A program made the translations under genes and the position numbers. From assembly GCF_020055635.1 (NCBI RefSeq), contig NZ_JAIPUT010000029.1, forward strand, positions 1 to 53,038: 53,038 nucleotides of DNA, in the 5' to 3' direction. Source of the stretch: Marivita sp. GTDB lineage: Bacteria; Pseudomonadota; Alphaproteobacteria; Rhodobacterales; Rhodobacteraceae. How positions within the stretch are numbered: position 1 is the first letter of the stretch; each line of letters starts with the position of its first letter. Under the pieces are notes generated by a model. That model made no database searches and was not told where the DNA came from. It saw only the letters and a program-made list of their open reading frames with translations. Positions 26,804 to 43,377 of this stretch are shown here, piece after piece.

Positions 26804-28060
26804 TCACCCGGATTCGTAATCGCTCCAGGCCATGTCCTCGCCGCCCAGACCTCCCTTGAGCACACGGGTCGGCAGGCCGATGCGGTCCAGCAGGGTGAAG
26901 AATGGCTTTGGATCCAGTTCCTCGACATTCTTCATCGTCTTGGCATCCCATTCCCCGGTGGCCACCAGCATGGCGGCGGCCACGGGCGGCACACCGGCGG
27001 TGTAGGAAATGCCCTGGCTGCCGACCTCTTCATAGGCGTCCTTGTGGTCGGCCACGTTGTAGACAAAGAGCTCGAAGTCTTGGCCGTCCTTGGTGCCTGT
27101 GACCAGATCCCCAATGCAGGTCTTGCCGGTGTAATCGGGTGCAAGGCTGGCCGGGTCGGGCAGGCAGGCCTTGACCACCTTGAGCGGGACCACCTCCTGG
27201 CCCTCGGCGGTGGTGACGGGCTGTTCGGACAGCAGACCGATGTTCTTCAGCACGGTGAAGACGTTGATATAATGATCGCCGAACCCCATCCAGAACCGCA
27301 CATCCGCCTGCGGGTAGTTCACCGCGAGGGAATGCACCTCGTCATGGCCCGACTGGTAGGCCTTGGACGGTCCCACCACGGGCAGATCCCAGGTGCGCCC
27401 GCTCTCGAACATCGACAGCTCTTTCCAGGTCTGGTCTTCCCAGTAATAGACGGTGCCGGTGAATTCGCGGAAATTGATCTCGGGGTCGAAATTCGTCGCG
27501 AAATACTTGCCGTGGCTGCCTGCATTGATGTCGACGATGTCGATGCTTTTGACCTCGTCCATCTGGTCGATGGCAAAGCGCGCATAGGCGTTCACCACGC
27601 CGGGATCGAACCCCGCGCCCAGGATTGCGGTCACGCCTTTTTCGGCGCAGGCATCCCGCCGTTTCCATTCGTAGTTCGCGTACCAGGGCGGGGTTTCGCA
27701 GATCTTGTCGGGCTCTTCGTGGATCGCGGTGTCGATATAGGCGACCCCCGTGGCGATGCAGGCATCCAGCACATGCATGTTCACAAAGGCCGTGCCCACG
27801 TTGATGACGATCTCTGCACCGGTGTCATTGATCAGCGCGGCCACGGCATCGGTATCGGTGGCGTCGACGCCATGGGCGTCAAAACGGCCCTCGACCTTCA
27901 TCGCGCCCTTCTCGTGGACGCTGGCGATGATCTCGTCGCATTTCGATTTCGTCCGGCTGGCGATATGCAGATCGCCCAGCACGTCGTTGTTCTGCGCACA
28001 TTTATGCGCGACAACCTGGGCCACGCCGCCGGCGCCGATGATAAGTATGGTCTTCTTCAA
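26804..28060 (-). CDS. Carboxynorspermidine dehydrogenase (saccharopine dehydrogenase family)
   Basis: 418 residues. Makes carboxy(nor)spermidine from aspartate semialdehyde and a diamine with NADPH, in the alternative spermidine route. Seen: N-terminal Rossmann motif IIGAGGVAQVVAHKCAQ, IASRTKSKCDEI, ILGAGFDPGVVNAYARFA, DINAGSHGKYFATNFDPEIN, all characteristic of the CANSDH branch. The start is TTG at 28060, chosen because AAGGGAG lies 7 nt upstream (28068-28074) and the resulting KKTILIIGAGG N-terminus fits relatives; earlier in-frame codons give an unlikely extension. It is preceded by the decarboxylase gene, with a 48-nt gap. Confidence 0.88.
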   Translation of the reverse strand: MKKTILIIGAGGVAQVVAHKCAQNNDVLGDLHIASRTKSKCDEIIASVHEKGAMKVEGRFDAHGVDATDTDAVAALINDTGAEIVINVGTAFVNMHVLDACIATGVAYIDTAIHEEPDKICETPPWYANYEWKRRDACAEKGVTAILGAGFDPGVVNAYARFAIDQMDEVKSIDIVDINAGSHGKYFATNFDPEINFREFTGTVYYWEDQTWKELSMFESGRTWDLPVVGPSKAYQSGHDEVHSLAVNYPQADVRFWMGFGDHYINVFTVLKNIGLLSEQPVTTAEGQEVVPLKVVKACLPDPASLAPDYTGKTCIGDLVTGTKDGQDFELFVYNVADHKDAYEEVGSQGISYTAGVPPVAAAMLVATGEWDAKTMKNVEELDPKPFFTLLDRIGLPTRVLKGGLGGEDMAWSDYESG

Positions 28061-28108
28061 GACAGAACTCCCTTGAGATGATGAGGCGCCCATCAGGGCG
28101 CGGTCAGA

Positions 28109-29200
28109 TCACGACAGGGCCGCCGCGAAATCGTCATAGGTGAAGCCGCGCACGAGGCGCTCGGTTCCATCGAGCTCGCGCACCGCGATGGCGGGCATCT
28201 GTACGCCATTGAACCAGTTTTTCTTGACCATTGTGTAACCGGCCGCGTCCTGCATGGACAAACGGTCACCGGGTTCGAGGTCTTGCGGAAAGCGGAACTC
28301 GCCGAAGATATCGCCCGCAAGGCAGGACTTGCCGCAGATCATCCAGTCGCGATCGCCGCTCTCATCCATCTTGGCGCTTTCGCGGTAAATCAGCAGATCG
28401 AGCATATGCGCTTCGATCGAACTGTCGACGATAGCAAGGTTCTTGCCGTTGTAGAGCGTGTCGAGCACCGTCACCTCGAGCGTGGTGGAGTTGGTGATCG
28501 CCGCCTCGCCCGGCTCGAGATAGACCTGCACCTCGTTCTCGCCGGCAAAGCGTTTCAACCGCTCCGCCAGACGATCAAGCGGGTAGCCCTCGCCGGTGAA
28601 ATGGATGCCACCGCCAAGCGAAATCCATTTCATCCGGCGGATCAGATGTCCGAAACGCGTCTCGATCTGGCCCAGCATCTCGTCGAACCGCTCAAAGCTG
28701 TCGTTCTCGCAATTGTTGTGGAACATGAATCCGCTGACCAGATCCACCACCGGTTCGATCCCCTCGGCGCTGTGTTCCCCCAGCCGCGAAAAGGGCCGCG
28801 CCGGATCGGCCAGATCAAAGCCCGAGGTCGACACACCCGGATTGACCCGCAACCCGCGCACATGGTCCCGGCTCACCTCTTCAAAGCGCAACAACTGCTG
28901 CGCGGTGTTGAAGATAACCTTGTCGGACCCAGCCAGCACCTCGTCGATCTCATGCGGTGCCCAGGCCACCGAATAGGCATGGGTCTCACCGGGAAATTTC
29001 TCGCGCCCCAGCTTCATCTCGAAAAGCGAGGAGGACGTGGTGCCGTCCATGTACTCGGACATCAAGTCGAAGACCGACCAGGTGGCAAAACACTTGAGCG
29101 CCAGCAAGGACTTCGCGCCGGAGTGCTCGCGCAGCCACGCGATTTTTTCCATGTTCGGAAGAAGACGGGATTTGTCGATCAGGTAATAGGGCGTCTGCAT
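28109..29200 (-). CDS. nspC: Carboxynorspermidine decarboxylase
   Basis: 363 residues. PLP-dependent alanine-racemase-fold decarboxylase that finishes (nor)spermidine synthesis from the carboxy intermediate. Seen: SLLALKCFATWSVF with the PLP Lys, VNPGVSTSGFDLADP, FMFHNNCENDSFERF, GGGIHFTGEGYPLDRL and CGKSCLAGDIFGEFRF. The ATG at 29200 gives the TPYYLIDKSRLLPN N-terminus usual for this enzyme. It is the first gene of a two-gene polyamine unit. Confidence 0.9.
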   Translation of the reverse strand: MQTPYYLIDKSRLLPNMEKIAWLREHSGAKSLLALKCFATWSVFDLMSEYMDGTTSSSLFEMKLGREKFPGETHAYSVAWAPHEIDEVLAGSDKVIFNTAQQLLRFEEVSRDHVRGLRVNPGVSTSGFDLADPARPFSRLGEHSAEGIEPVVDLVSGFMFHNNCENDSFERFDEMLGQIETRFGHLIRRMKWISLGGGIHFTGEGYPLDRLAERLKRFAGENEVQVYLEPGEAAITNSTTLEVTVLDTLYNGKNLAIVDSSIEAHMLDLLIYRESAKMDESGDRDWMICGKSCLAGDIFGEFRFPQDLEPGDRLSMQDAAGYTMVKKNWFNGVQMPAIAVRELDGTERLVRGFTYDDFAAALS

Positions 29201-29252
29201 GCGCGTCGAGCCTTTCACGGGTCGCAACGGGAATGCATCGGACCGGTCGATG

Positions 29253-29281
29253 CCGGGGCCGTTTATTCGGATCGGCCCCGG
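29253..29281. repeat. GC-rich stem-loop in the gap between the TRAP permease and nspC genes
   Basis: CCGGGGCCG (29253-29261) and CGGCCCCGG (29273-29281) form a perfect 9-bp stem around an 11-nt loop. There is no T-run on either side. It lies in a 261-nt stretch (29201-29461) with no recognisable gene; nspC promoter or TRAP 3' end structures are the likely contents. Confidence 0.4.
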
Positions 29282-29461
29282 TGCGCAATGCACCTGTCAG
29301 GAAAATGTCGCCTGCGACGGGCCGCGGGCCCAGGGCCGTTCCCTGTGGGTCACGATCAGATGCGTTCGTCGGGGCGGCTGTTGTGATGGAACAGGCGGGC
29401 CGCCCGGCTGCGCAAACGCGCGTGGCCATTGGCCAGCAAATCGCAGTCGCGCGGCTTGGTC

Positions 29462-31537
29462 CTATGTCGACTCCCGGTACGACACGGACTTGCCGATAAG
29501 GGGCAATTGCCGGATCACAGCGGGCAGGACCAGCAGGATCCCGATCACCGTCGGCCAGACGCTGGGCACGACCAGCAACAGTGCCGAGATCGTCAGCAGA
29601 AGCCGCTCGTACCCGCGCAGCGGTGCAAAAAGCCAGCCGGCAAAGACCGAGGACAGCATCCAGATGCCCGCCATCGCGCCCAGCGTGGAGAGGAAGAATT
29701 CCGACCACGTGAAGCCTTCCGTGACCAGCAGCATCGACGGCGAGAAGACAAAGACGAACGGCACCAGCGCCTTGCCCATGCCCAGCCGGAAGGCCGTGTT
29801 GCCCGCCTTGAAGGCATTGGCGTCGGCGATCCCGGCCGCCGCATAGGCGGCCAGCGCGACAGGCGGCGTGATGTCCGCCAGGACCCCGAAGTAGAAGACG
29901 AAGAAATGCGCCACGATCGGCTCGACCCCGAGCAGCCCGAGGATCGGCGCCGCGACGGCGATCATGATCAGGTAGTTCGCCGTTGTCGGGATGCCGCAGC
30001 CCATCAGGACGCAGACAATCGCCGTCATGATGAGGGTGAACAGCAGCGTCAGCGAGGTCACGGACATGACAGCGAAAGGCAGGAAGGAAAAGCCGGCGGA
30101 AACCGTCTCGGCCCATTGCCCGGCGACAGAGGTGACCATGTAGGCGATCTTGAAGCCGACGCCGGTTAGCGTGACGACCCCGATGACGACACCCACGAGG
30201 GCGGCGGCGGCTGTCACAGAAAGCGAATATTTCGCGCCGAGCACGAAGGCATCCCAGAGCCCGACGACGAACTCGGTGACCGCGCCGCGGATGTCGGTTC
30301 CATGCTTGACCAGCGACTGGATCGCGAGCACGCCGATACAGGCGGTGATCCCCCAGAAGGCGGCAAGATAGGGCGTCTTGCCGGACAGCAGGATCGCCAC
30401 CAGCACGAAAAGCGGCAGGGTGGTCAGCCAGCCGGCCTTGAACACGGTCCAGGCGACCGGCAGTTCGTCCTTGGTCAGACCGCGCAGCCCCCGGCGGCGC
30501 GCCTCGAGGTGGACCTGCACGAGGACACCGAAGAAGTGCATGAAGGCCGGGACCAGCGCGGCCGTCAGGATCGTCGTCAGCGGCACGCCGAGGTACTCGA
30601 TCATCAGGAAGGCGACCGCTCCCATGACCGGTGGCGTGATCTGCCCGCCGGTGGAGCTTGCCGCCTCGACCGCCGCCGCGAAGTGGCGGGGATAGCCGAT
30701 CCGGATCATCGCGGGGATGGTCAGTGACCCGGTGGTCACGGTGTTGGCGATGGACGAGCCCGAGATCGACCCCAGCATCGCCGAGGACAGGACCGAGACC
30801 TTGGCCGGTCCGCCCGCGAACCGTCCCGCGAGCGACGAGGCGAGGTCGATGAAGAGCTGCCCCAGCCCGATCCGTGTGGCCATCACACCGAACAGCACGA
30901 AGTGGAACACATAGGTCGAGATCACGCCGAGCGCGGTGCCGTAGATGCCCTGGCTGGTCAAGTAGAGGTGGTTGACGATCCCGGTCCAGTCGGACCCCGG
31001 ATGGGTCAGCACGCCGGGCATCGACTGCCCGAAATAGGCATAGGCGATAAAGAGGCAGGCAATCACCGGCAGGGGCCAGCCCATGGCGCGCCGGGTCGCC
31101 TCGAGAAGGGTGACGATGAGGATCGTGCCCATGACGACGTCGATGGGAAGCGGGTTGCCCACCCGGAAGGCAAGATCCTCGAAGATCCACGGCACGTAGA
31201 GCGCCGAGACAAGGGCCGCGATGGCAAGGACCCAGTCGATCAGCGGCAGGCCGAACGGGGCAAGGATGCCGGGCTTGACGGCGCGGGGCCGGCCGAAGGC
31301 CATGAATGAGAAATAGACCAGCGCCAGCGTCACGCCCATGTGGACGCCGCGATGCGTGGTCGCGCGTGGAATGCCGTAGCCGGCGGTGTAGTAGTGATAA
31401 CAGGCCAGCGCGAAGAGTGTCCCGGCGACGAGCCATCCGAGGGCCGGCGGGAGTGGCCGGAAGCGGACCTCGGCGTCGAACTCCTCTTCGAGGGCCTTCA
31501 TTTCCTCTTCGGTCAGGCTCTCACTACGGCTGGACAT
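29462..31537 (-). CDS. TRAP transporter fused permease (4TM plus 12TM, TAXI type)
   Basis: 691 residues. The small (DctQ-like) and large (DctM-like) permease domains are fused, which is usual for TAXI TRAP systems. Seen: multiple transmembrane helices throughout, SISGSSIANTVTTGSLTIP and SSTGGQITPPVMGAVAFLM, typical of the DctM domain, later GCGIPTTANYLIM and GVLADITPPVALAAY. It imports an organic acid or amino acid with Na+ or H+ gradients. It is preceded by the TAXI binding protein gene, with a strong hairpin between them. Substrate unknown. Confidence 0.92.
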   Translation of the reverse strand: MSSRSESLTEEEMKALEEEFDAEVRFRPLPPALGWLVAGTLFALACYHYYTAGYGIPRATTHRGVHMGVTLALVYFSFMAFGRPRAVKPGILAPFGLPLIDWVLAIAALVSALYVPWIFEDLAFRVGNPLPIDVVMGTILIVTLLEATRRAMGWPLPVIACLFIAYAYFGQSMPGVLTHPGSDWTGIVNHLYLTSQGIYGTALGVISTYVFHFVLFGVMATRIGLGQLFIDLASSLAGRFAGGPAKVSVLSSAMLGSISGSSIANTVTTGSLTIPAMIRIGYPRHFAAAVEAASSTGGQITPPVMGAVAFLMIEYLGVPLTTILTAALVPAFMHFFGVLVQVHLEARRRGLRGLTKDELPVAWTVFKAGWLTTLPLFVLVAILLSGKTPYLAAFWGITACIGVLAIQSLVKHGTDIRGAVTEFVVGLWDAFVLGAKYSLSVTAAAALVGVVIGVVTLTGVGFKIAYMVTSVAGQWAETVSAGFSFLPFAVMSVTSLTLLFTLIMTAIVCVLMGCGIPTTANYLIMIAVAAPILGLLGVEPIVAHFFVFYFGVLADITPPVALAAYAAAGIADANAFKAGNTAFRLGMGKALVPFVFVFSPSMLLVTEGFTWSEFFLSTLGAMAGIWMLSSVFAGWLFAPLRGYERLLLTISALLLVVPSVWPTVIGILLVLPAVIRQLPLIGKSVSYREST

Positions 31538-33988: not shown

Positions 33989-34381
33989 CTATCCCAGGCG
34001 GATCAATTCGGCGAGGATGTCGGAACGATGGACAAGCCCCAGAACCTGTCCCGCATCGCAGACCGGGAAAACCCGGTGGGGATGCGACAGGAACATCCCG
34101 GCGACGTGGATCAGGTCATCCTCGGGCTCCACGCTTATGATCGTGCGGCTCATGTGATCGCTCACGGTGCCCGTCCATTCGCGATAGTAGCTTGCGTGCA
34201 GGGCAGAGCGAAAGCAGTCCTTCTGGGTGAGGAAGCCGGCAAGCCGATCGTCCTGTCCAAGCACGGGGGCCGCCGCCGCGCGCGCCTCGACCAGAAGGGC
34301 GGCGGCGCGGCGGATCGGCGTGTCCGGCGTCAGCACAAGGACATCCTTGCGCATGACCGATGTGACGCGTTTCGTTGTCAT
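33989..34381 (-). CDS. CBS-domain-pair protein at the end of the NQR operon
   Basis: 130 residues consisting of two CBS domains (about 5-60 and 70-127): VTSVMRKDVLVLTPDTPIRRAA, GFLTQKDCF, VSDHMSRTIISVEPEDDLIHVA, GLVHRSDILAEL. CBS pairs bind adenosyl nucleotides such as AMP, ATP or SAM, so an energy-sensing regulatory role is plausible. No other domain is present. Its start overlaps the nqrM-like gene by 4 nt, which places it in the same transcript as the NQR genes. Confidence 0.85.
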   Translation of the reverse strand: MTTKRVTSVMRKDVLVLTPDTPIRRAAALLVEARAAAAPVLGQDDRLAGFLTQKDCFRSALHASYYREWTGTVSDHMSRTIISVEPEDDLIHVAGMFLSHPHRVFPVCDAGQVLGLVHRSDILAELIRLG

Positions 34382-34557
34382 CGCGTATCTTCCCCCCCGA
34401 TGCGCCGGCGCAGGGGGCAGTCTGCGCAGCGTCCCTCGGGGCGGTTGGCGGCGGCGCTGCATGTCGTGAGCACGGGGCCGCGACCGAGAAGCAGGCCCAG
34501 CCCCAGCCCGCCGACGGCCAGCGCAATGATCGCCACGGCAAGGATCACTTCGAGCAT
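34378..34557 (-). CDS. nqrM: NqrM-like Na+-NQR maturation protein
   Basis: 59 residues. One transmembrane helix (VILAVAIIALAVGGLGLGLLLG) followed by a short tail with three cysteines in the pattern Cx9Cx2C (VLTTCSAAANRPEGRCADC) and a basic end. NqrM (DUF539 family) is known to be required to mature NQR, probably by supplying iron to the intramembrane Fe-S site, and its cysteines are important. This one is shorter and has three cysteines rather than the four I remember. Its place after apbE supports the assignment. Confidence 0.65.
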   Translation of the reverse strand: MLEVILAVAIIALAVGGLGLGLLLGRGPVLTTCSAAANRPEGRCADCPLRRRIGGEDTR

Positions 34558-34570
34558 CGGATTGCCTTTC

Positions 34571-35539
34571 TCATGCCAGCACCGCGCCAATCCCGCCGGT
34601 CCGCAACTGGCGGAGTGATGACGCGCCTTCAAAGAGGAAGAGCGCGGCGATGTCATGCGTGCGCGCCAGCGCGGGTCCGGCCGCATCGCCCGCGGCGAAG
34701 AGGGCAGTGGCCCAGCCGTCGGCGGTCATGGCGTCATGTGCCAGCACGGTGACCGACCGCAGGTTCCCTTCAACCGGGCGAGCGCTGGCGGGATTCATGA
34801 TATGGCCCCAGACACGCCCGTTCAGCATGTAACTCTGCGCGCCAAGGCCCGAAGTTGCAACCGCCATGCCCTCGGGCAGGTGCAGGATCGCCGGAACGGG
34901 CTGGCCCGGCGCGGGAGGCTCGACCGCCACCTGCCAGTCGCGGCCTTCAGGGTGTCGGCCCAGCGCGCGCAGTTCACCGCCGACATCGAAAAGCAGGTTG
35001 GACACGCCGTGATCCCGCGCAAGTTGCCATGCGCGGTCGAGCGCGCGGCCCTTGGCGATACCGCAAAGGTCGAGCGTCAGATCGGCCTGGCCCTTGGTCA
35101 GCCGTCCTGTGCCAATTGTCACTTTCCGCCAATCCGGGGCCGCACCCCGTTCGATCGGCCCGAAGCCCCAGCGCGCGACAAGCGGCCCGACCGTCGGGTC
35201 GAACGCGCCTTCGCTTTCGCGGGCCAGCCGAAGCGCCGATTGCGTAACCCGGATCATCTCGGAACTCGCGGGCGAGCCGGACTGGCTTGCGTTGAAACGG
35301 CTGATGGCGCTGTCTGCGCGCCATGGCGACATGTCCCGGTCGATCTCCGCAAAAAGCGCGTCTATCTTGGGGCGCAGCCGCTCAAGCCCGGCCCCCTCCG
35401 GGCCGGTGATGCTCCACCGCGTCCCGAATGCCGCACCCGACAGATGGTCGGACGCCGCTGCGCGGGCAAGGGACGGGGCGGCCAGGGCTGCGCCCAGACC
35501 GGTCAGAAAAGCGCGTCTCGAAGGGAAAACTATGTGCAT
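34571..35539 (-). CDS. apbE: FAD:protein FMN transferase ApbE
   Basis: 322 residues. Attaches FMN covalently to Thr in NqrC and NqrB-type subunits. Seen: a twin-arginine-like leader (SRRAFLTGLGAALAAPSLARAA), GTRWSITG, MSPWRADSAISRFN, LDLCGIAKGRALDRAW, FDVGGELRALG and GHIMNPASARPVEG. The ATG at 35539 is 1 nt after the nqrF stop. It acts in the periplasm on the NQR complex encoded just upstream. In this operon the NqrC motif is present but the NqrB motif is not. Confidence 0.9.
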   Translation of the reverse strand: MHIVFPSRRAFLTGLGAALAAPSLARAAASDHLSGAAFGTRWSITGPEGAGLERLRPKIDALFAEIDRDMSPWRADSAISRFNASQSGSPASSEMIRVTQSALRLARESEGAFDPTVGPLVARWGFGPIERGAAPDWRKVTIGTGRLTKGQADLTLDLCGIAKGRALDRAWQLARDHGVSNLLFDVGGELRALGRHPEGRDWQVAVEPPAPGQPVPAILHLPEGMAVATSGLGAQSYMLNGRVWGHIMNPASARPVEGNLRSVTVLAHDAMTADGWATALFAAGDAAGPALARTHDIAALFLFEGASSLRQLRTGGIGAVLA

Positions 35540-35540
35540 G

Positions 35541-36764
35541 TCAGGCTCCGAAATCGTCGTAGAAGATGGCGTCGGGCTCCACACCCAAACGTTCCAAGGT
35601 CGCCAGCACCGCCGAAATCATCACCGGCGGCCCGCAGAGGTAGTATTCGCAGTCTTCGGGTGCGGGATGACCAGCCATCTCTGCGCGCAGGATCTCGTGG
35701 ATGAAGCCGGTTGGCCCGGTCCAGCGGTCGCCGGGGGCGGGATCGGACAGGGCAGGTGTCCAACTGAAATTGGCGTTGTCACGGGCAAGTGCCTCGAATT
35801 CCTCGGTATAGAACAGGTCGGCAGCGGTGCGGGCGCCGTAGAAATACCGGATACGCCGGGGGGTGTTCTGCCCCAGTTCCTGGTGGATCATCGCGCGCAG
35901 CGGGGCCATGCCGACGCCGCCTCCGATATAAACCATCTCGCGGTCGGTGGGCTGGACGTGGAACTCGCCGAACGGGCCCGAAGCCGTGACCGTGTCGCCG
36001 GGGTCCAGCATGAACAGCCAGGACGACACGATGCCCGGCGGGACTTCGCGCTCGCGCCCCGCGGGCGGCACGGCGAGGCGGATGTTGAAGACGGCGGTGC
36101 CTGCGTCTTCGGGGCGGCTGGCCAGCGAATAGGCGCGCGTCACCTCTGTGTCGGACGCGACGTGCATGTTGCGCCAGCCGGCGATCTGCCAGGCATCGCG
36201 GAAAGCCTCCGGCAGGTCGAGCTTTGAGAAGTCAAGGCTGTAGGGCGGCGCGGTGATCTGCATGAAATCGCCGGCATGAAAGGCGGTGGGACGGTCGCTG
36301 GGCAGCTCCAGCACGATCTCGCGGATCAGTGGCGCCAGCATCCGGGTCGAACGGACCGTGCAGGCAAAACCGCCCCCCGCGCTGAGGATGCCTTCGGGCA
36401 CCTCGACGGCGCAATCGCCGCGCAGGCTGGTCTGGCAGGCAAGTCGCACATGGTCGCGCCGCTCTTTCGGCGACAGCACCCCGCGTTCGGTCGCTTGCGC
36501 CGTGCCCGCGCCGTCGCCCGTGACGGTGACGCGGCACAGCCCGCAGGTTCCCTTGCCTCCGCAGGCCGCCGGGATCGGGATGGCCGCATTGTGCAGCGCA
36601 TCGAGCAGCTTCTCGCCACGTTGCGCCGGAATATGCCGCGCGCCGTTCAGCGAAATGTCGAGAGCCTCTGCCGGGATCAGACGCTGCCGAAGCACCACCA
36701 GCCCGATCGCCAGCCCGAGCATCAGCGTCACGATCACCAGGGAACCGACCGCGATCTCCGTCAT
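35541..36764 (-). CDS. nqrF: Na+-translocating NADH:quinone reductase subunit F
   Basis: 407 residues. NADH-oxidising subunit. Domains: N-terminal transmembrane helix (about 5-25), a 2Fe-2S ferredoxin domain with ACGGKGTCGLC and RLACQTSL giving the four Cys ligands, then a ferredoxin-reductase domain with FAD-binding TRAYSLAS, NADH-binding GGGVGMAPLRAM, YYLCGPPVM and a C-terminal DDFGA. All expected NqrF hallmarks are intact. The start overlaps the nqrE stop by 4 nt. Confidence 0.94.
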   Translation of the reverse strand: MTEIAVGSLVIVTLMLGLAIGLVVLRQRLIPAEALDISLNGARHIPAQRGEKLLDALHNAAIPIPAACGGKGTCGLCRVTVTGDGAGTAQATERGVLSPKERRDHVRLACQTSLRGDCAVEVPEGILSAGGGFACTVRSTRMLAPLIREIVLELPSDRPTAFHAGDFMQITAPPYSLDFSKLDLPEAFRDAWQIAGWRNMHVASDTEVTRAYSLASRPEDAGTAVFNIRLAVPPAGREREVPPGIVSSWLFMLDPGDTVTASGPFGEFHVQPTDREMVYIGGGVGMAPLRAMIHQELGQNTPRRIRYFYGARTAADLFYTEEFEALARDNANFSWTPALSDPAPGDRWTGPTGFIHEILRAEMAGHPAPEDCEYYLCGPPVMISAVLATLERLGVEPDAIFYDDFGA

Positions 36765-37375
36765 TGCGACACCGCCATCTGGGCAAAGGACGCAAATCCC
36801 AGCGACATCAGCCCGGTCATGACAAAGGCGATGCCCAGCCCGCGAAGTCCCGCGGGCAGGTCCGCATAGGCCAGCCGGGTGCGCAATGCGCCAAGCATCA
36901 CGACCGCGACGGCAAAGCCCAGCCCGCTGCCAAGCCCGAACACCGCCGATTCCGCCAGCGTATACGCCCTGTCCACCATGAAAAGGCTCCCCGCGAGGAT
37001 CGCGCATTGCACCGTCAGAAGTGGCAGAAAGACCCCGAAGGCGGCATGGACTGCGGGAAAGAAGCGGTCCAGCAGCATTTCGAGCACCTGCACCGTCGCT
37101 GCGATCACGCCAATAAAGGCGATGAGCGAGAGGTAGGACAGGTCAAGATCGGGCATCCCGGCCCAGGTCCACGCGCCGGGGGCCAGCACGCCCTGATAGA
37201 TCAGCCAGTTGAGCGGCACCGTCACGCCCAGGACGCCGGTCATTGCGATGCCAAGGCCGATGGCGCTTTCGGGGCGTTTGGAGAGCGCAAGGAAGGTGCA
37301 CAGCCCGAGGAACAGCGTCAGCGGCATGTTGTCCACAAATGCGGCAGACAGGAAAAGCGCCCAGAGACCCGTCAT
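36761..37375 (-). CDS. nqrE: Na+-translocating NADH:quinone reductase subunit E
   Basis: 204 residues, six transmembrane segments. Shares an intramembrane 2Fe-2S centre with NqrD. Seen: LFLGLCTFLALSKRPESAIGLG with the first conserved Cys, and FLPLLTVQCAILAGSLFM with the second. Both Cys that form the shared cluster are kept. 4-nt overlaps with nqrD and nqrF. Confidence 0.93.
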   Translation of the reverse strand: MTGLWALFLSAAFVDNMPLTLFLGLCTFLALSKRPESAIGLGIAMTGVLGVTVPLNWLIYQGVLAPGAWTWAGMPDLDLSYLSLIAFIGVIAATVQVLEMLLDRFFPAVHAAFGVFLPLLTVQCAILAGSLFMVDRAYTLAESAVFGLGSGLGFAVAVVMLGALRTRLAYADLPAGLRGLGIAFVMTGLMSLGFASFAQMAVSQ

Positions 37376-38037
37376 TCGGCGGGCCTCACGTCTGCGGGGG
37401 GCTCATGCTCGGGGGCTTCGGCCTGTTCCGGCAGAAGGGCCCGGATCGCCCAGACAAGGCCGCCCAGCAGGAAAAAGGCCGATGGGGCCAGCAGCATCAG
37501 GCTCAGCGGTGTGAACCAGCCGCCCGCATCCGCCAGAGGCAGCGCCTGCCAGCCGAAAAGCTGCCCTCGGCCAAAAAGTTCACGCAGGCCGCCGATGATC
37601 AGCAGGATCAGCGAATACCCCAGCCCGTTGCCGAACGCGTCGACCGCCGCCGGGACCGGCGCATGGTGACGCGCATAGGCTTCGGTGCGGCCCAGCACGA
37701 GACAGTTGGTGGTGATCAGGCTGACATAGATCGACAGCGCGCGGCTGATATCGGCGAAGAAGGCTTGCAGCACCTGGTCGATCACGATCACCAGCGAGGC
37801 GACGATGACGATCTGCACGATCAGGCGGATGGTATCGGGAATGTGGCGGCGGATCAGGCTGATGATCCCCGCCGACAGGGTCAGCACGACGGTCAGCGAC
37901 ACCGACATGGTCAGCGCCGTTGCGAGCGAAGTGGTCACCGCCAGCGCCGAACAGATCCCGAGGATCTGCAACGTCACCGGGTTCTGCCGGATCAGCGGTT
38001 CGGTCAGGGTGGTCCAGAGGTCGAAACGCGCGGCCAT
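37372..38037 (-). CDS. nqrD: Na+-translocating NADH:quinone reductase subunit D
   Basis: 221 residues, six transmembrane segments. Seen: LILGICSALAVTTSL-like motif (LQILGICSALAVTT) with the first cluster Cys and SLITTNCLVLGRTEAYA with the second, LLIIGGLRELFGRG, and a hydrophilic C-terminal tail. Partner of NqrE in the intramembrane Fe-S cluster. It overlaps nqrE by 4 nt and is 3 nt after nqrC. Confidence 0.93.
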   Translation of the reverse strand: MAARFDLWTTLTEPLIRQNPVTLQILGICSALAVTTSLATALTMSVSLTVVLTLSAGIISLIRRHIPDTIRLIVQIVIVASLVIVIDQVLQAFFADISRALSIYVSLITTNCLVLGRTEAYARHHAPVPAAVDAFGNGLGYSLILLIIGGLRELFGRGQLFGWQALPLADAGGWFTPLSLMLLAPSAFFLLGGLVWAIRALLPEQAEAPEHEPPADVRPAE

Positions 38038-38040
38038 GGA

Positions 38041-38835
38041 TCAGAACTCCCCTCTCTGAATGGCGCGGATCAGCGGGCCGTAGCCGTCGGGGCCAAGCCA
38101 GAAGCGCACCATGTTCGAGATGCCCCGCGTGGTGCGCGTGGCCCCGGTGATGCCGTCGACCTGGTAGGCGGTCGATGCGTCGCCCCGCGCCACGTTGAAG
38201 CGCAGATCGCCGGTATCGTCGTGCAATTCGGTGCCCGGGAAGCTGGATTGCCACGAGGGATCCTCGATCCGTCCGCCCAGGCCGGGGGTTTCGGAATGGC
38301 TGGTGATGGCGATCCCGGCGATGGTGTTCATGTCGCCCTCGACGGCCAGGATCGCGTCGATCCGCCCGCCATAGCCCTGTCCGGTCATCGGCAGCAGCAC
38401 CAGGGAAATCGAATCGTTCCGGCGCAGCAGGAAGATCTGGGCGTAATCCGGTCGCTGGCCCAGACCGGCGATGTCGGCCCCGGCCTCCAGCGCGGTCCAG
38501 TTCACGGTGTCGGCCAAGGCGGCGTCAAGCGTGTCGGTGGTCACGTCCTGCGCGGCGCGCCCCTCGTCAAGGTCGATCACCACCGTCGACAAGGTGCCGC
38601 CCGATTGCTCCAGAAGATCGCCCATGCCGGGAATGCCGCGCACCAGCGCCTCGATCCGGGCCTGTTCCTCGGCGGCGCGGTTGGCGGTCTGGATCGGGCG
38701 CAGCAACACGGTCGCGCCGCTGACCAGCAGGGCGCAGACCGCCGCCACGACGAATGCCATGACAAGCGTCTTGGTCCGGCTTTCGTTCGGCAGCGCAAGG
38801 AATCGTCGCCAGGGATTGCGCTCAGTGTCGGCCAT
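38041..38835 (-). CDS. nqrC: Na+-translocating NADH:quinone reductase subunit C
   Basis: 264 residues. One N-terminal transmembrane helix and a periplasmic FMN-binding domain. Seen: GYGGRIDAILAVEGDMNTI, HSETPGLGGRIEDPSW, and VDGITGATRTT, the [ST]GAT-type flavinylation motif near the C-terminus where ApbE attaches FMN to the Thr. The ATG at 38835 overlaps the nqrB stop by 14 nt. Confidence 0.92.
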   Translation of the reverse strand: MADTERNPWRRFLALPNESRTKTLVMAFVVAAVCALLVSGATVLLRPIQTANRAAEEQARIEALVRGIPGMGDLLEQSGGTLSTVVIDLDEGRAAQDVTTDTLDAALADTVNWTALEAGADIAGLGQRPDYAQIFLLRRNDSISLVLLPMTGQGYGGRIDAILAVEGDMNTIAGIAITSHSETPGLGGRIEDPSWQSSFPGTELHDDTGDLRFNVARGDASTAYQVDGITGATRTTRGISNMVRFWLGPDGYGPLIRAIQRGEF

Positions 38836-39604
38836 GTCGCCTCCGTCTTCGGGCATACCAGAGCGCCAGCGCCACCTCGTCGAGGACCGGCGCGGCGAGC
38901 GATGTGAGCAGCGCTGCGGCCACCGCGAACTGTACCGGCGCCGCCCCGTGCCATGCATTTGCAAAAAGGATCACCAGCGCGAGAAAGAGCAGCCCATTGA
39001 GCCAGCGGCCCAACCGTGTCGTCGCGCTGGTGACAGGATCGGCCACCAGCAAGACCAGCACGACACCCGCCGCGGGCAGGGCGAAACCCGGCAGCACGCC
39101 GATCGCCACCGCACCCGTCGCACCCAGCGCCGCGCTGAGCAGAACACCGGCAGGCATCACCCCGGTCATCAGGCCGATCGCTGCCGCCGGGATCGCGGCC
39201 CATGCGACCGGCAACAGGATCTCGGGCCAGGCGAAGCCGGGGAAACCGAATCCGAGGAAGGAAAGCGCCACCGTCGCCGGGTTGACCACGTTGCGCCCCC
39301 AGCCGCCGAAGACCAGCTCTCCCATCACCGCGCCAAAGCTGATGCCGAGGATGAGCCGGACCCCCCCAAGGCCTTCGGGCGCCAGCATCGCGATTGCCAA
39401 AGCCGTGATCCCCGCCGAGAGCGAGACCGGCTGCGCTCGGGCCAGCAGAAAGACAAGCTGCCAGATCGCCAGGACCAGCAGCGCCAGCGCCAGGCGGTGC
39501 ATGTCCTGAATGTTGCCGAACCACAGCCAGAAAAGGGCGAGCGGCAGATAGGCCAGCAACAGCAGGACCACCACTGTCTCGCGGGTCCAGATTCCCCTGT
39601 TCAT
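38822..39604 (-). CDS. nqrB: Compact NqrB-like subunit lacking the covalent-FMN segment
   Basis: 260 residues, whereas known NqrB is about 400-415. The retained part matches the NqrB core: ILGISFGAVMGELVFGGWGRNVVNPATVALSF (like the GITFG...EVFGGTGRNFLNPAL stretch) and LLVADPVTSATTRLGRWLNG (like FMATDPVSA...GKW). The roughly 140 N-terminal residues are missing, and so is the stretch after NPA that carries DGYSGAT and IGE in normal NqrB, so no Thr for FMN is present there. The ORF is intact and overlaps nqrA by 4 nt, which argues against a sequencing error. RnfD normally also carries the motif. Confidence 0.8.
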   Translation of the reverse strand: MNRGIWTRETVVVLLLLAYLPLALFWLWFGNIQDMHRLALALLVLAIWQLVFLLARAQPVSLSAGITALAIAMLAPEGLGGVRLILGISFGAVMGELVFGGWGRNVVNPATVALSFLGFGFPGFAWPEILLPVAWAAIPAAAIGLMTGVMPAGVLLSAALGATGAVAIGVLPGFALPAAGVVLVLLVADPVTSATTRLGRWLNGLLFLALVILFANAWHGAAPVQFAVAAALLTSLAAPVLDEVALALWYARRRRRHGRH

Positions 39605-40857
39605 GCAGCGAACTCCGTCCGGATCCGCTCCAGCATGCCGCGCAGAAGCTGCCGCAGATGGCCGTCGTCCCCCAGGACGTAGTCGGCCAGCGCGCAATCC
39701 TCTTCCAGCAGCGACAGGACCCCCATCTTCATCGCCGTTTCATCGTCGCCCGCACTGAGCACGCGGGTGAATGCGGCCGCGGGCAAGGCACCGCCAAAGG
39801 CCTGGTCAAGTGCCGCACTAGGGATCACCGGCCTGGCGCTGGCCGAGCGGGTGAGCGCGGCGGTCAGCCAATGTCGCGTGGGGCGCGACGGGTCGCGTGG
39901 CAAAGCGGTGACCTGCCTGTCGCGCGGGAGCAGCCAATGCTCGGCGTGGCCGTCCAGGGGCGATCCGGACAGGAGCCTGTGCGCTCCGGGCAGAACGCTG
40001 CGATAGGTCAGGCCCCGCAGATCGGCACCGGCTTGCGTTCGCACCAGACGGCTTTCCCGCAAGGCCGATCCGGCGATGCTGACCAGCCGGGTCAGCGGCA
40101 GTTGCCCGGTCTCCAGCAGGGTGCCAAGTGCCGCCACATCCTCGGCATGGATATCCCAGACAGGCGTGTCGAGCCCGGCGGGACAAAGCGCGTGAATGCG
40201 CAATCCCGCGGCACCCTGCGGATGACGTGCCCCGATTGATACGACATGTGCCTTCTGCCCGTCGGCGCTGTCGATCAAGGCGGGGCCCGGCTGTTGACAC
40301 AGAAACGGAGCTTCGTCCGTCAGCAACGCCAAGGCGCGAAGTCCACGGCCGAACGCCTCTTCCAGCCCATCGAGGGCAAGGCGCGGATCGGGCGCGAAAG
40401 GGCGGGTGTCTGCCGCCATGACCACGATGGCGGCCGGGCGCTCCTTGGCATCGGGCATCCCTCCGAACGGCCGCCGCCGGAGCCACGGCCAGAATCCGGC
40501 CCGCTGCATCAGACGTCGCAAGCCCGCTTCGGTGTCGGCCCCTGACGTGTCATGAACGATGGCATCGCCGCCGGTTTCCCGGAAAACCACGATTTCGGAC
40601 AGCCGGTGCCCCTGCAACAGCGAGACCCGTGCGACGCGGGCCGCCATCGGCGCCACGAAACAGACATTTGGCGCGTCGCGCAACCGGGCCAGTGGCGCGC
40701 CCGCCGCCACAACCGCGTCATCCTTCGCTTCGATCGACACACGCGGCGCGGTGCCACGCGGCGGGCGAAGGCCTGCCTCCTCCGTCATGACCTCCTCGAT
40801 GCCATGCGCAGTGCGTGGCGGCGAGGGGAAAGGAATTGTGAGACCCGAGCGGGACAT
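39601..40857 (-). CDS. nqrA: Na+-translocating NADH:quinone reductase subunit A
   Basis: 418 residues, slightly shorter than usual (about 446) and divergent. Seen: AAGAPLARLRDAPNVCFVAPMAARV (barrel-sandwich-like entry), RRPFGGMPDAKERPAAIVVMAADTRPFAPDP, VWDIHAEDVAALGTLLETGQLPLTRLVSIAG, and a C-terminal EEDCALADYVLG, each corresponding to known NqrA blocks. The start at 40857 was taken because it precedes SGLTIPF; ATG at 40869 is also possible. It is the first gene of the NQR operon and divergent from the pentaheme cytochrome. Confidence 0.85.
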   Translation of the reverse strand: MSRSGLTIPFPSPPRTAHGIEEVMTEEAGLRPPRGTAPRVSIEAKDDAVVAAGAPLARLRDAPNVCFVAPMAARVARVSLLQGHRLSEIVVFRETGGDAIVHDTSGADTEAGLRRLMQRAGFWPWLRRRPFGGMPDAKERPAAIVVMAADTRPFAPDPRLALDGLEEAFGRGLRALALLTDEAPFLCQQPGPALIDSADGQKAHVVSIGARHPQGAAGLRIHALCPAGLDTPVWDIHAEDVAALGTLLETGQLPLTRLVSIAGSALRESRLVRTQAGADLRGLTYRSVLPGAHRLLSGSPLDGHAEHWLLPRDRQVTALPRDPSRPTRHWLTAALTRSASARPVIPSAALDQAFGGALPAAAFTRVLSAGDDETAMKMGVLSLLEEDCALADYVLGDDGHLRQLLRGMLERIRTEFAA

Positions 40858-40987
40858 AGCCTGGAACATGCGGCATCGGTACCACGGAACCGCGGCACGT
40901 CGTTTGATCTGCCGCAATCCGCCGCCGGGTAAGTCGTGGTAATCTTCGAACGAGTTTCCCGCTGGCATACACACCGGAGTAGACGCG

Positions 40988-42166
40988 ATGTCCCACACGC
41001 CCAAAGCCACCTGGCTCGTTCTCGCCGCCGCATCTTGTGCAATCCTGCTGATCGGCGCCCCGTCCGTGCCGGGCCAGAACGACCAGGCCGGGTCCGAAGA
41101 GGCCGAGACAATCGTGCCCTTTGCACTGCCCAAATCCGGTCCCTTCAATCCGGCCGATATCGAGATCAAGAACGACCAATCCATCACCGACTGGTTTCGC
41201 TCGGCCCATGCCGACGCGGCGGCCGAAGCGTTCCGCCACTGGGACGAGGAAGAGGAAATCACCGCCGTCTGCGCCACCTGCCATTCCGGCGAGGGCTTTC
41301 GCGACTACCACGGGCTTGATGGCACAACGGCAGGCAAGGTCGACGGCCCGATCAACACCGGTGGCGTGGTCGATTGCGGCACCTGCCACAATGCGGGGCT
41401 TGCGGATATCGAAGAGATCGCCTTCCCCAGCGGCCTCATGCATCCGGTTCAGGGGGTCGAGGCGTCCTGCATGACCTGCCACCAGGGCCGGACCGCGGGC
41501 AGCAACGTCGTCAAGGCGATGGGCGATCTGGATCTTGATGAACCCAACGCCGACCTGCGCTTCATCAACCCGCATTATGCCACCGCCGCCGCGACATGGC
41601 TCGGCGGCTATGGCGGGTCGGGATATCATTACGACGGCAAGGACTATTCCGGTCGGTTCTTCCATGCCCGGCCGGTGTCGAGTTGCGTGTCCTGCCACGA
41701 ACCTCACACGCTCGAGGTCGCGTTCGAGCCGTGTCTCACCTGCCACCAGGCAGATTCCACCGAAGGCATCCGCATCGCCCGGCAAAGCTATGACGGCAGC
41801 GGCAATACATCGAAAGGGATCAAGTCCGACCTCGAGGCGAATGCCGCAACGCTTCTGGACATGATCAAGGCCTACGCCGCCGAGGTCGCGGACGCGCCGA
41901 TCCTCTATGACGGAACGCGCTATCCCTACTTCTTCGCCGATTCGAATGGCGACGGGGCGGTCGACCAAAGCGATGGAAAAGCCGTCGCCTACACGTCGTG
42001 GACGCCGCGCAGCCTGCGTGCCGCCTATAACTGGAAACTGGTCACCGCCGATCCCGGCAACTACGTCCACAACCCGCCTTACATGCTCGAACTTCTCTAC
42101 GACTCAATCGAGGATCTGGGCGGCCCGCTGGGGACCGATATGGAGGCTTTGAACCTGCTGCGGTAA
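40988..42166 (+). CDS. Periplasmic pentaheme cytochrome c with an EF-hand-like loop
   Basis: 392 residues. An N-terminal hydrophobic segment (9-26) is a signal peptide or anchor. Five CxxCH heme-attachment motifs: CATCH 95-99, CGTCH 130-134, CMTCH 161-165, CVSCH 233-237 and CLTCH 249-253. An EF-hand/dockerin-like Ca-binding loop DSNGDGAVDQSD is at 318-329. Several extra His could be distal ligands. GGAG lies 8 nt before the ATG. Divergent from nqrA with a shared 130-nt region. A role as electron donor or acceptor of the NQR-like complex is possible. The exact family is not recognised; a short conserved tail follows. Confidence 0.8.
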   Translation: MSHTPKATWLVLAAASCAILLIGAPSVPGQNDQAGSEEAETIVPFALPKSGPFNPADIEIKNDQSITDWFRSAHADAAAEAFRHWDEEEEITAVCATCHSGEGFRDYHGLDGTTAGKVDGPINTGGVVDCGTCHNAGLADIEEIAFPSGLMHPVQGVEASCMTCHQGRTAGSNVVKAMGDLDLDEPNADLRFINPHYATAAATWLGGYGGSGYHYDGKDYSGRFFHARPVSSCVSCHEPHTLEVAFEPCLTCHQADSTEGIRIARQSYDGSGNTSKGIKSDLEANAATLLDMIKAYAAEVADAPILYDGTRYPYFFADSNGDGAVDQSDGKAVAYTSWTPRSLRAAYNWKLVTADPGNYVHNPPYMLELLYDSIEDLGGPLGTDMEALNLLR

Positions 42167-42198: not shown

Positions 42199-43377
42199 TC
42201 AGTCGGCTCGGTCCGCCGAAGTTGCCTCGGCATCGACGTAACGCAGAGCCATCAGGGTGACCGGTGGGCCGATGATCTCGAAAACCACGGTGGCCGCGAC
42301 AGTCAGCGTCATGATTGTCGCGTCCCATTGCGGGATCGCTTCCGCCGCGACCAGCGCCATGCCGACTGCGACCCCCGCTTGGGGAAGAAGCGCAGGTCCG
42401 TAGGCGTGGCGCTCTCTGACAGGCACATGCCCCAGCCGCGCGCCGATCTCGCCCGCCAGCAACCGCGACATGATGCGCAGCGCCACATAGGCCGCTGTGA
42501 GCCACCCAAGGGACCACAGGGCATCCAGTTCAAGCGACGCCCCGGCGAGCAGGAAAAAAAGGAGCATGAACGGCCATTCGATATGCTCGATTTCATTGAA
42601 GGCGCGCTCGTGATGCTGCGCGAAATTGGCGATGACGGCGCCGGCGGTCATGCCGGCCACCAGGAATGACATTTCCATCCAGAGCGACACCCCCGCAGTG
42701 ATGAAGACCACGCCGATGGCTTCGGTCTGCAACGGCTCGCCCGGCTTGAGCCGCCCGGTGAGATACGCCGCGGGCATGCCTATGGCGAGGCCAAGAAGAA
42801 CGGCGCCCCCGATATCGAAGCCGACCGCCAGCAAGGGCTCGGTCCAGCCGTTGAACGGGTGCACCAGGGCCAGACAAAGGCTGAACATGATCAGGCCCCA
42901 GACATCGTCGATCGCCACGATGCCGCTCAGGGTTTCCGAAAATCCGTTCCGGATGCCGGATTGATGGATGACGTCCGAGATCGCCGCCGGTGCCGTCGCT
43001 GTCGCGATTGCCCCCAGCAAAAGGGCAAGTCCCGGGTCGACGCCCAACAGCGCCAGGCCCGCCCAGACGACAACCGTGGTCCCGGCAACGACACAAAGGG
43101 AAATCGAAAAGATCGCCCGTCCATGACGTGCCAGGTTCTCCCGGGTCAACTCCCCGCCCAGCAGAAAGGCGACCATCGTGAGCGCAATGTAGGACAGCGG
43201 CGCAAACCAGTCCGCCGAGGCTTCAGGCAGAATGCCGAAACCGGATTGCCCGAACAGCAGACCCAGGAGCAAAAGCACCGTCACCCGCGGCAGGCGTGTC
43301 GCGCGACCGAACTGGTCGGCCGCCAATCCTGCCAGAAACAGGGCCCCCAGCGCAGTGATCACAAGGCCATCGTCCAC
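42199..43377 (-). CDS. CPA-type cation:proton antiporter
   Basis: 392 residues, about 12 transmembrane helices. Exchanges Na+ or K+ for protons across the membrane. Seen: a Leu-rich N-terminal helix, LLGAIATATAPAAISDVIHQSG, the conserved TxxAPAAISDV-type segment carrying the ion-site Asp, and SGIVAIDDVWGLIMFSL with the second acidic pair (AIDD). No C-terminal TrkA domain. Convergent with the cytochrome gene (32-nt gap). Na+ exchange would complement an NQR-type pump, but the ion is not determined. Confidence 0.85.
   Translation of the reverse strand: MDDGLVITALGALFLAGLAADQFGRATRLPRVTVLLLLGLLFGQSGFGILPEASADWFAPLSYIALTMVAFLLGGELTRENLARHGRAIFSISLCVVAGTTVVVWAGLALLGVDPGLALLLGAIATATAPAAISDVIHQSGIRNGFSETLSGIVAIDDVWGLIMFSLCLALVHPFNGWTEPLLAVGFDIGGAVLLGLAIGMPAAYLTGRLKPGEPLQTEAIGVVFITAGVSLWMEMSFLVAGMTAGAVIANFAQHHERAFNEIEHIEWPFMLLFFLLAGASLELDALWSLGWLTAAYVALRIMSRLLAGEIGARLGHVPVRERHAYGPALLPQAGVAVGMALVAAEAIPQWDATIMTLTVAATVVFEIIGPPVTLMALRYVDAEATSADRAD

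Follow-up and report, generated by a model that had tools for sequence, protein, structure and literature searches.

The contig NZ_JAIPUT010000029.1 of Marivita sp., whose 53,038 nucleotides are the whole stretch of DNA analysed here (the window), carries a gene cluster for all six subunits of a Na+-translocating NADH:quinone oxidoreductase (NQR) in which nqrB encodes only 260 residues. This short NqrB has almost certainly lost the covalently bound flavin mononucleotide (FMN) of its family. It recurs in related genomes, mostly beside a divergently transcribed gene for a pentaheme cytochrome c, and on balance we consider the cluster to encode an NQR-derived NADH dehydrogenase that is detached from quinone and acts as a conduit for electrons from NADH to a periplasmic cytochrome. 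The genes are arranged in the order nqrA-nqrB-nqrC-nqrD-nqrE-nqrF-apbE, with the short nqrB inside:

39601..40857, minus strand: nqrA, 418 residues, divergent, with its NQRA_N match under the cut-off and the C-terminal motif lost
38822..39604, minus strand: short nqrB, 260 residues, an ATG...TGA frame assigned by PF03116 match, alignment and model
38041..38835, minus strand: nqrC, 264 residues, FMN site DGITGAT kept (profile match and motif)
37372..38037, minus strand: nqrD, 221 residues, both cluster cysteines kept (C29/C112)
36761..37375, minus strand: nqrE, 204 residues, both cluster cysteines kept (C26/C124)
35541..36764, minus strand: nqrF, 407 residues, four ferredoxin cysteines, flavin adenine dinucleotide (FAD) and NADH domains
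34571..35539, minus strand: apbE, FMN transferase (PF02424), start codon assigned in this analysis

The nqrB frame consists of 260 clean codons and overlaps nqrA by 4 and nqrC by 14 nucleotides. Its product matches PF03116 (NQR2_RnfD_RnfE) with 65 bits at a cut-off of 27.7 and contains this domain only, PF00175 being located in the separate NqrF; its score with the NCBIfam nqrB profile, 55.4, is far under the cut-off of 349.9. NqrB of Vibrio cholerae aligns with the window protein on either side of an absent stretch, and the motifs GELVFGGWGRNVVNPA and ADPVTSATT are retained. The first-pass annotation had described a 260-residue NqrB that keeps the GxxFGGxGRNxxNPA and ADPVxSAxT blocks and lacks the N-terminal region and the covalent-FMN segment. 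The alignment bore out all of this, the missing N-terminal part being that of the quinone helices, and the predicted fold agreed on the FMN segment: the model is confident and keeps the ten-helix NqrB fold, while the N-terminal amphipathic helices, the FMN loop and the GxxGE segment are missing.

Alignment (MAFFT) of 40 distinct short NqrBs of 253-278 residues, the window protein included, with 28 full NqrBs, a set from which the aberrant frames L118 (314 residues) and L144 were left out, revealed a gap in the column of the FMN threonine in 40/40 short proteins and a threonine in 28/28 full ones. The DGxSGAT...GxxGE loop region is down to 4 residues in the short proteins versus 46-62 in the full ones, and neither alignment nor fold places an SGAT-like motif at the FMN site of the window protein. 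Two candidate hidden motifs in relatives were not counted, a GGTGAT string near the C-terminus of L089 (match from position 217), away from the FMN site, and a match of L090 to a looser pattern only. Short NqrB lacks the N-terminal part with quinone helices AH-I and AH-II, and the quinone-pocket residues G141 and F159 are altered in 30 and 39 of the 40 proteins, respectively, both being alanine in the window. The acidic residues of the Na+ path are replaced in the window protein (D52 by T, E157 by L and the GxxGE glutamate by L); across the 40 proteins, the original acid is retained at D52 in 10, at E157 in none and at the GxxGE glutamate in 2. The riboflavin site T162, N200 and D346 reads T, N and D in the window, the last position being D or E in 39/40. 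That the complex has one covalent flavin less is well supported by the conserved length and loss, by purifying selection and by the full-fold model; quinone reduction has likely been lost, and Na+ pumping by the known route is probably lost too. The initial suggestion, that the complex may differ in its electron flow and ion coupling, is probably correct but did not go far enough, as residues of the quinone site and of the Na+ path are gone too.

A decaying operon or an assembly artefact would likewise leave a truncated gene, and the relative G029 does have broken nqrC, nqrE and cytochrome genes. We consider this explanation very improbable. The ratio of nonsynonymous to synonymous substitution rates (dN/dS) between the window and its relatives is 0.11-0.15 for short nqrB and 0.06-0.13 for nqrC and nqrD, indicating that short nqrB is under purifying selection; moreover, the fold is confident, the cofactor residues encoded by nqrC to nqrF are kept, and the short form is present in 36/295 genomes, each of a different genus. 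Conservation across independent genomes refutes decay for the window, and frameshift, decay and artefact were ruled out by the conserved short form, the dN/dS values and the loss of the FMN site in 40/40 proteins; the earlier argument that the 4- and 14-nucleotide overlaps make a simple frameshift unlikely thus gains from the conserved length, dN/dS and fold. It is just as improbable that a full NqrB is encoded at another site, with the short NqrB in an accessory role. Two relatives, G139 and G165, do have both forms, but a profile search of the window's own genome (4.9 Mb, completeness 99.99%, contamination 4.91%) found one PF03116 gene only, with no second NqrB/RnfD-family gene and no complete nqrB, which refutes this explanation unless the assembly misses a piece.

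The distribution of short NqrB was followed in 295 genomes, one per genus, of the same family, with an alignment of short NqrBs as query. To judge by its named relatives, this family is probably Rhodobacteraceae; the NCBI taxonomy places Marivita in Roseobacteraceae. The matches fell into two distinct classes: short proteins were hit in a single piece, and proteins of ~400 residues partially or in two pieces. The short form was found in 36 genomes, including fragments (G285, G199) and stop-marked forms (G147, G148, G180), and the full form in 41 as read from the listings, i.e. 78 genomes matched, less the 36 with the short form and the weak G259, G271 and G292, plus G139 and G165. The same genomes recur across our searches (L018, for example, is G010), and for many relatives a script picked the start codon. 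The nearest named relative is that of Marivita lacus (94% identity); others are from Cognatishimia, Aliiroseovarius and Defluviimonas. In a sample of the phylum (398 genomes, 214 with some match), one-piece short forms among the matches listed were confined to the same family (G000, G226, G290, G334 and G686, the last of which has an internal stop); most of the remaining matches listed were partial or two-piece, in frames of ~400 residues, and rarer short forms elsewhere are possible. A sample of the class (289 genomes, E ≤ 1e-25) returned G000, G334 and one odd protein of another family (G792), with no further short form. A tree of NqrC, NqrD, NqrE and NqrF from 37 loci split 20 clusters with short NqrB from 17 with full-length NqrB (bipartition support 100, branch of 0.54 substitutions per site). 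The first-pass annotation had proposed a search for further NqrBs under 300 residues; 40 such forms could be aligned, and the tree sets the 20 short-NqrB clusters in it apart. Short NqrB is an NQR variant spread across one, mostly marine, bacterial family. Among the open-access papers listed in our searches, we recognised none on a short NqrB without FMN in an NQR of six subunits, or on its pairing with a pentaheme cytochrome.

Three odd loci turned up in these searches. The 314-residue frame of L118 (G686) resembles short NqrB at its start and the FMN-site portion of NqrC (DGISGAT) at its end, which looks like a fusion of the two genes by internal deletion. L144 (G792), from another family of the class, is a distant NqrB-like frame of 442 residues that has none of SGAT, GRN and DPV and was not counted as a member. 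In the broken-looking cluster of L031 (G029), nqrC is split into two parts separated by 1.4 kb, nqrE is partial, and the cytochrome gene, which shares the strand of the nqr genes, is likewise split and contains a stop.

In known NQR, electrons pass from NADH through FAD and the 2Fe-2S cluster of NqrF, the cluster of NqrD/E, the FMN of NqrC, and the FMN and riboflavin of NqrB to quinone. NqrB-FMN and riboflavin are ~8 Å apart (PMC12174285), and this semicircular path is thought to be coupled to Na+ transport, the proposal being that the ion path opens when NqrB-FMN is reduced (PMC10643135). The first-pass annotation had called the window cluster an otherwise intact NQR operon, naming TGAT of NqrC, the cysteines of NqrD and NqrE, the four ferredoxin cysteines of NqrF, and ApbE, all of which we found in the window. 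Across the 20 short clusters, the cluster cysteines are kept in 20/20 for NqrD and NqrF and in 19/20 and 20/20 for the two of NqrE (one match being partial), and the FMN threonine of NqrC is T in 19/20 and S in one (L024). apbE was not found in 2/21 related loci: L024, the cluster of a metagenome-assembled genome in which the NqrC site reads GAS for GAT, and L112, in which GAT is kept. The window cluster has NqrA and NqrF in place of the RnfB and RnfC subunits of RNF. The description as intact does not extend to NqrA, which has diverged: its NQRA_N score is 17.9 bits at a cut-off of 25, two short clusters score 17.9 and 18.6 versus 107.6 and 118.5 in two full-length clusters, and the C-terminal motif [AG]K[YH][ED][YF]G, present in 17/17 full-length clusters, occurs in 0/20 short ones. 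With the NCBIfam cut-offs, nqrD, nqrE and nqrF of the window score above and nqrA, nqrB and nqrC below. Given that NqrA has diverged while the cofactor residues are conserved, the change is concentrated at the output end (NqrB, NqrA), and the input half (NqrF, NqrD/E, NqrC) is kept.

The complex might still act as an NADH:quinone oxidoreductase that lacks one flavin, close to what was first pictured, in which electrons go from NqrC-FMN directly to NqrB riboflavin and then to quinone, which would bind at a remodelled site. The acidic residue at D346 in 39/40 proteins, the retained NqrB fold and the retention of nqrA and nqrB in the clusters speak for this, and in two-subunit Nqr/Rnf-like complexes NqrC-type FMN has been proposed to sample a non-covalent flavin site directly (PMC11334425). 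We nevertheless regard it as unlikely, because the AH-I/AH-II stretch is absent, G141 and F159 are altered as described and E157 in 40/40, NqrA has diverged, and the conserved cytochrome neighbour would be left unexplained. Furthermore, a complex I subunit (PF00346) is present in the window's own genome, so reduction of quinone by NADH need not rest on the nqr cluster.

The operon reading of the first-pass annotation had missed the likely partner, which is transcribed divergently beside nqrA:

40988..42166, plus strand: putatively secreted pentaheme cytochrome c, 392 residues, five CXXCH motifs, tentatively NrfA/OcwA-like predicted fold, proposed redox partner

By eye, the protein has a signal-like N-terminus followed by the five CXXCH motifs, which are invariant in 42/42 members of the group. 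Members are 38-95% identical to the window copy and <20% to the structures listed. The sequence alone retrieved nothing from the PDB below E 0.27, and its profile gave weak matches, the best to a nonaheme cytochrome c (6.6e-5) and one to NrfA-type c-552 (1.6e-4). Typical NrfA has CXXCK at heme 1; this has no counterpart in the window cytochrome, in which all five motifs are CXXCH. The cytochrome gene adjoins the short-NqrB cluster in 31/36 genomes of the family and full nqrB in 0/41, the latter count being read from the listings; in four of these 41 (G023, G027, G139, G165) it is on another contig. It is divergent in 30 of the 31 adjoining cases, across 1.3-1.7 kb holding nqrA, the remaining one being G029 with its same-strand arrangement. 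Of the five exceptions, G028, G076, G148 and G285 are genomes in which no such gene was found, and G199 has it on another contig. We conclude that the cytochrome is fairly likely to be the partner of the short NQR.

The cytochrome also occurs where short NqrB does not, in 14 genomes, of which 12 loci were inspected (G159 and G221 were left out). In 9/12 loci (L097-L102, L104, L107, L108) the divergent nqr position is taken by a transmembrane NAD(P)H reductase of FRE/NOX type, with Ferric_reduct, FAD_binding_8 and NAD_binding_1 domains in a Pfam scan of the L101 protein and the other eight assigned by 61-70% identity to it. We saw no description of this divergent pair in the open-access literature searched. 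A third type of neighbour was observed at L103:6863-10510, where the pentaheme cytochrome is accompanied by a nonaheme cytochrome and a membrane cytochrome of b561 type; L113 and L114 have neither of these nor the FRE-type gene. FRE/NOX-type proteins run from NAD(P)H outward. Two unrelated membrane systems, each expected to oxidise NAD(P)H, thus replace one another next to this cytochrome, suggesting that short NQR sends electrons outward; this alternation is the main argument for outward flow.

In the mechanism we propose, electrons from NADH would pass through NqrF (FAD, 2Fe-2S) and NqrD/E (2Fe-2S) to NqrC-FMN on the periplasmic side and from there to the pentaheme cytochrome, in place of the return by NqrB-FMN, riboflavin and quinone. 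NqrB would serve as a scaffold on which NqrC and NqrA dock, and may still hold a riboflavin within reach of NqrC-FMN. The cytochrome may itself reduce a terminal acceptor (nitrogen oxides or metals, judged by the tentatively NrfA/OcwA-like fold alone) or hand the electrons on. A cytochrome d1 nitrite reductase was considered in the window's own genome, but the match to PF02239 was weak and partial and was not used. We give an even chance to the full form of this idea, in which the semicircular NQR path has been turned one-way, from NADH over NqrC-FMN to a dedicated periplasmic pentaheme cytochrome of NrfA/OcwA-like type, with NqrB a non-pumping, quinone-blind scaffold and the FRE/NOX-type reductase serving the same cytochrome elsewhere in the family. 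The same parts could run in reverse, from the periplasmic cytochrome over NqrC, NqrD/E and NqrF to NAD+, driven by an ion gradient: RNF is described as driven in reverse by ion gradients (PMC12174285), and a Na+/H+ exchanger gene is near 13/21 short-NqrB loci. Such flow is quite improbable; with most acids of the Na+ path lost, ion-driven uphill transfer is hard to picture. Moreover, the FRE/NOX-type proteins in the same place run outward.

Compared with Na+-NQR of V. cholerae, the window system has the six-gene cluster with apbE, the cofactor residues of NqrC to NqrF and the ten-helix NqrB fold, but lacks the covalent-FMN threonine, the quinone helices and most of the conserved Na+-path acids of NqrB; its NqrA is divergent and a pentaheme cytochrome adjoins. 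It resembles the two-subunit Nqr/Rnf-like complexes, for which outward electron flow has been proposed, in having an NqrB-like membrane protein without the flavinylation threonine beside an NqrC-like FMN protein (PMC8238504, PMC11334425). Those complexes, however, fuse the NqrB-like domain to an NAD-binding domain, have two apparent subunits and are mainly from Actinobacteria and the candidate phyla radiation, whereas short-NqrB clusters encode all six subunits and belong to the family of Marivita. RNF of Methanosarcina acetivorans likewise works with a multiheme cytochrome c, but it is an RNF with ferredoxin input (PMC12174285). These systems are precedents for an FMN-less NqrB relative and for a multiheme partner, and neither has six NQR subunits. 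The short NQR is a natural NQR minus the NqrB flavin, the quinone pocket and most Na+-path acids, with the other cofactor sites kept, and could serve to find out which parts the pump depends on. Should the cytochrome indeed be the acceptor, it would be an NADH-fed entry to periplasmic electron transfer in which quinone is bypassed.

The region between nqrA and the cytochrome gene holds a candidate regulatory box:

40858..40987, no strand assigned: divergent promoter region holding TTGATCTGCCGCAA (40904-40917), an imperfect box of FNR/CRP type

The box has two mismatches to TTGATNNNNATCAA, and the case for it rests on conservation, compared over 34 chosen cytochrome loci, of which 7 are closely related to the window; a part of the start codons was assigned in the analysis, for L032 and L110 only approximately. 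A search of the whole window for the FNR-type consensus TTGAYNNNNRTCAA with at most one mismatch gave 2 matches, 3.1 being expected by chance, and none in this promoter.

Further genes flank the cluster:

34378..34557, minus strand: small cysteine-rich membrane protein, NqrM-like by position and cysteine pattern, without a Pfam match
33989..34381, minus strand: CBS-domain protein, present in 21/21 short-NqrB loci checked, start codon assigned in the analysis
42199..43377, minus strand: Na+/H+ exchanger family protein, with relatives in 13/21 short-NqrB loci checked

Elsewhere in the window, at 26804-31537, are saccharopine-dehydrogenase-like, carboxynorspermidine-decarboxylase-like and fused TRAP transporter genes, named by eye.
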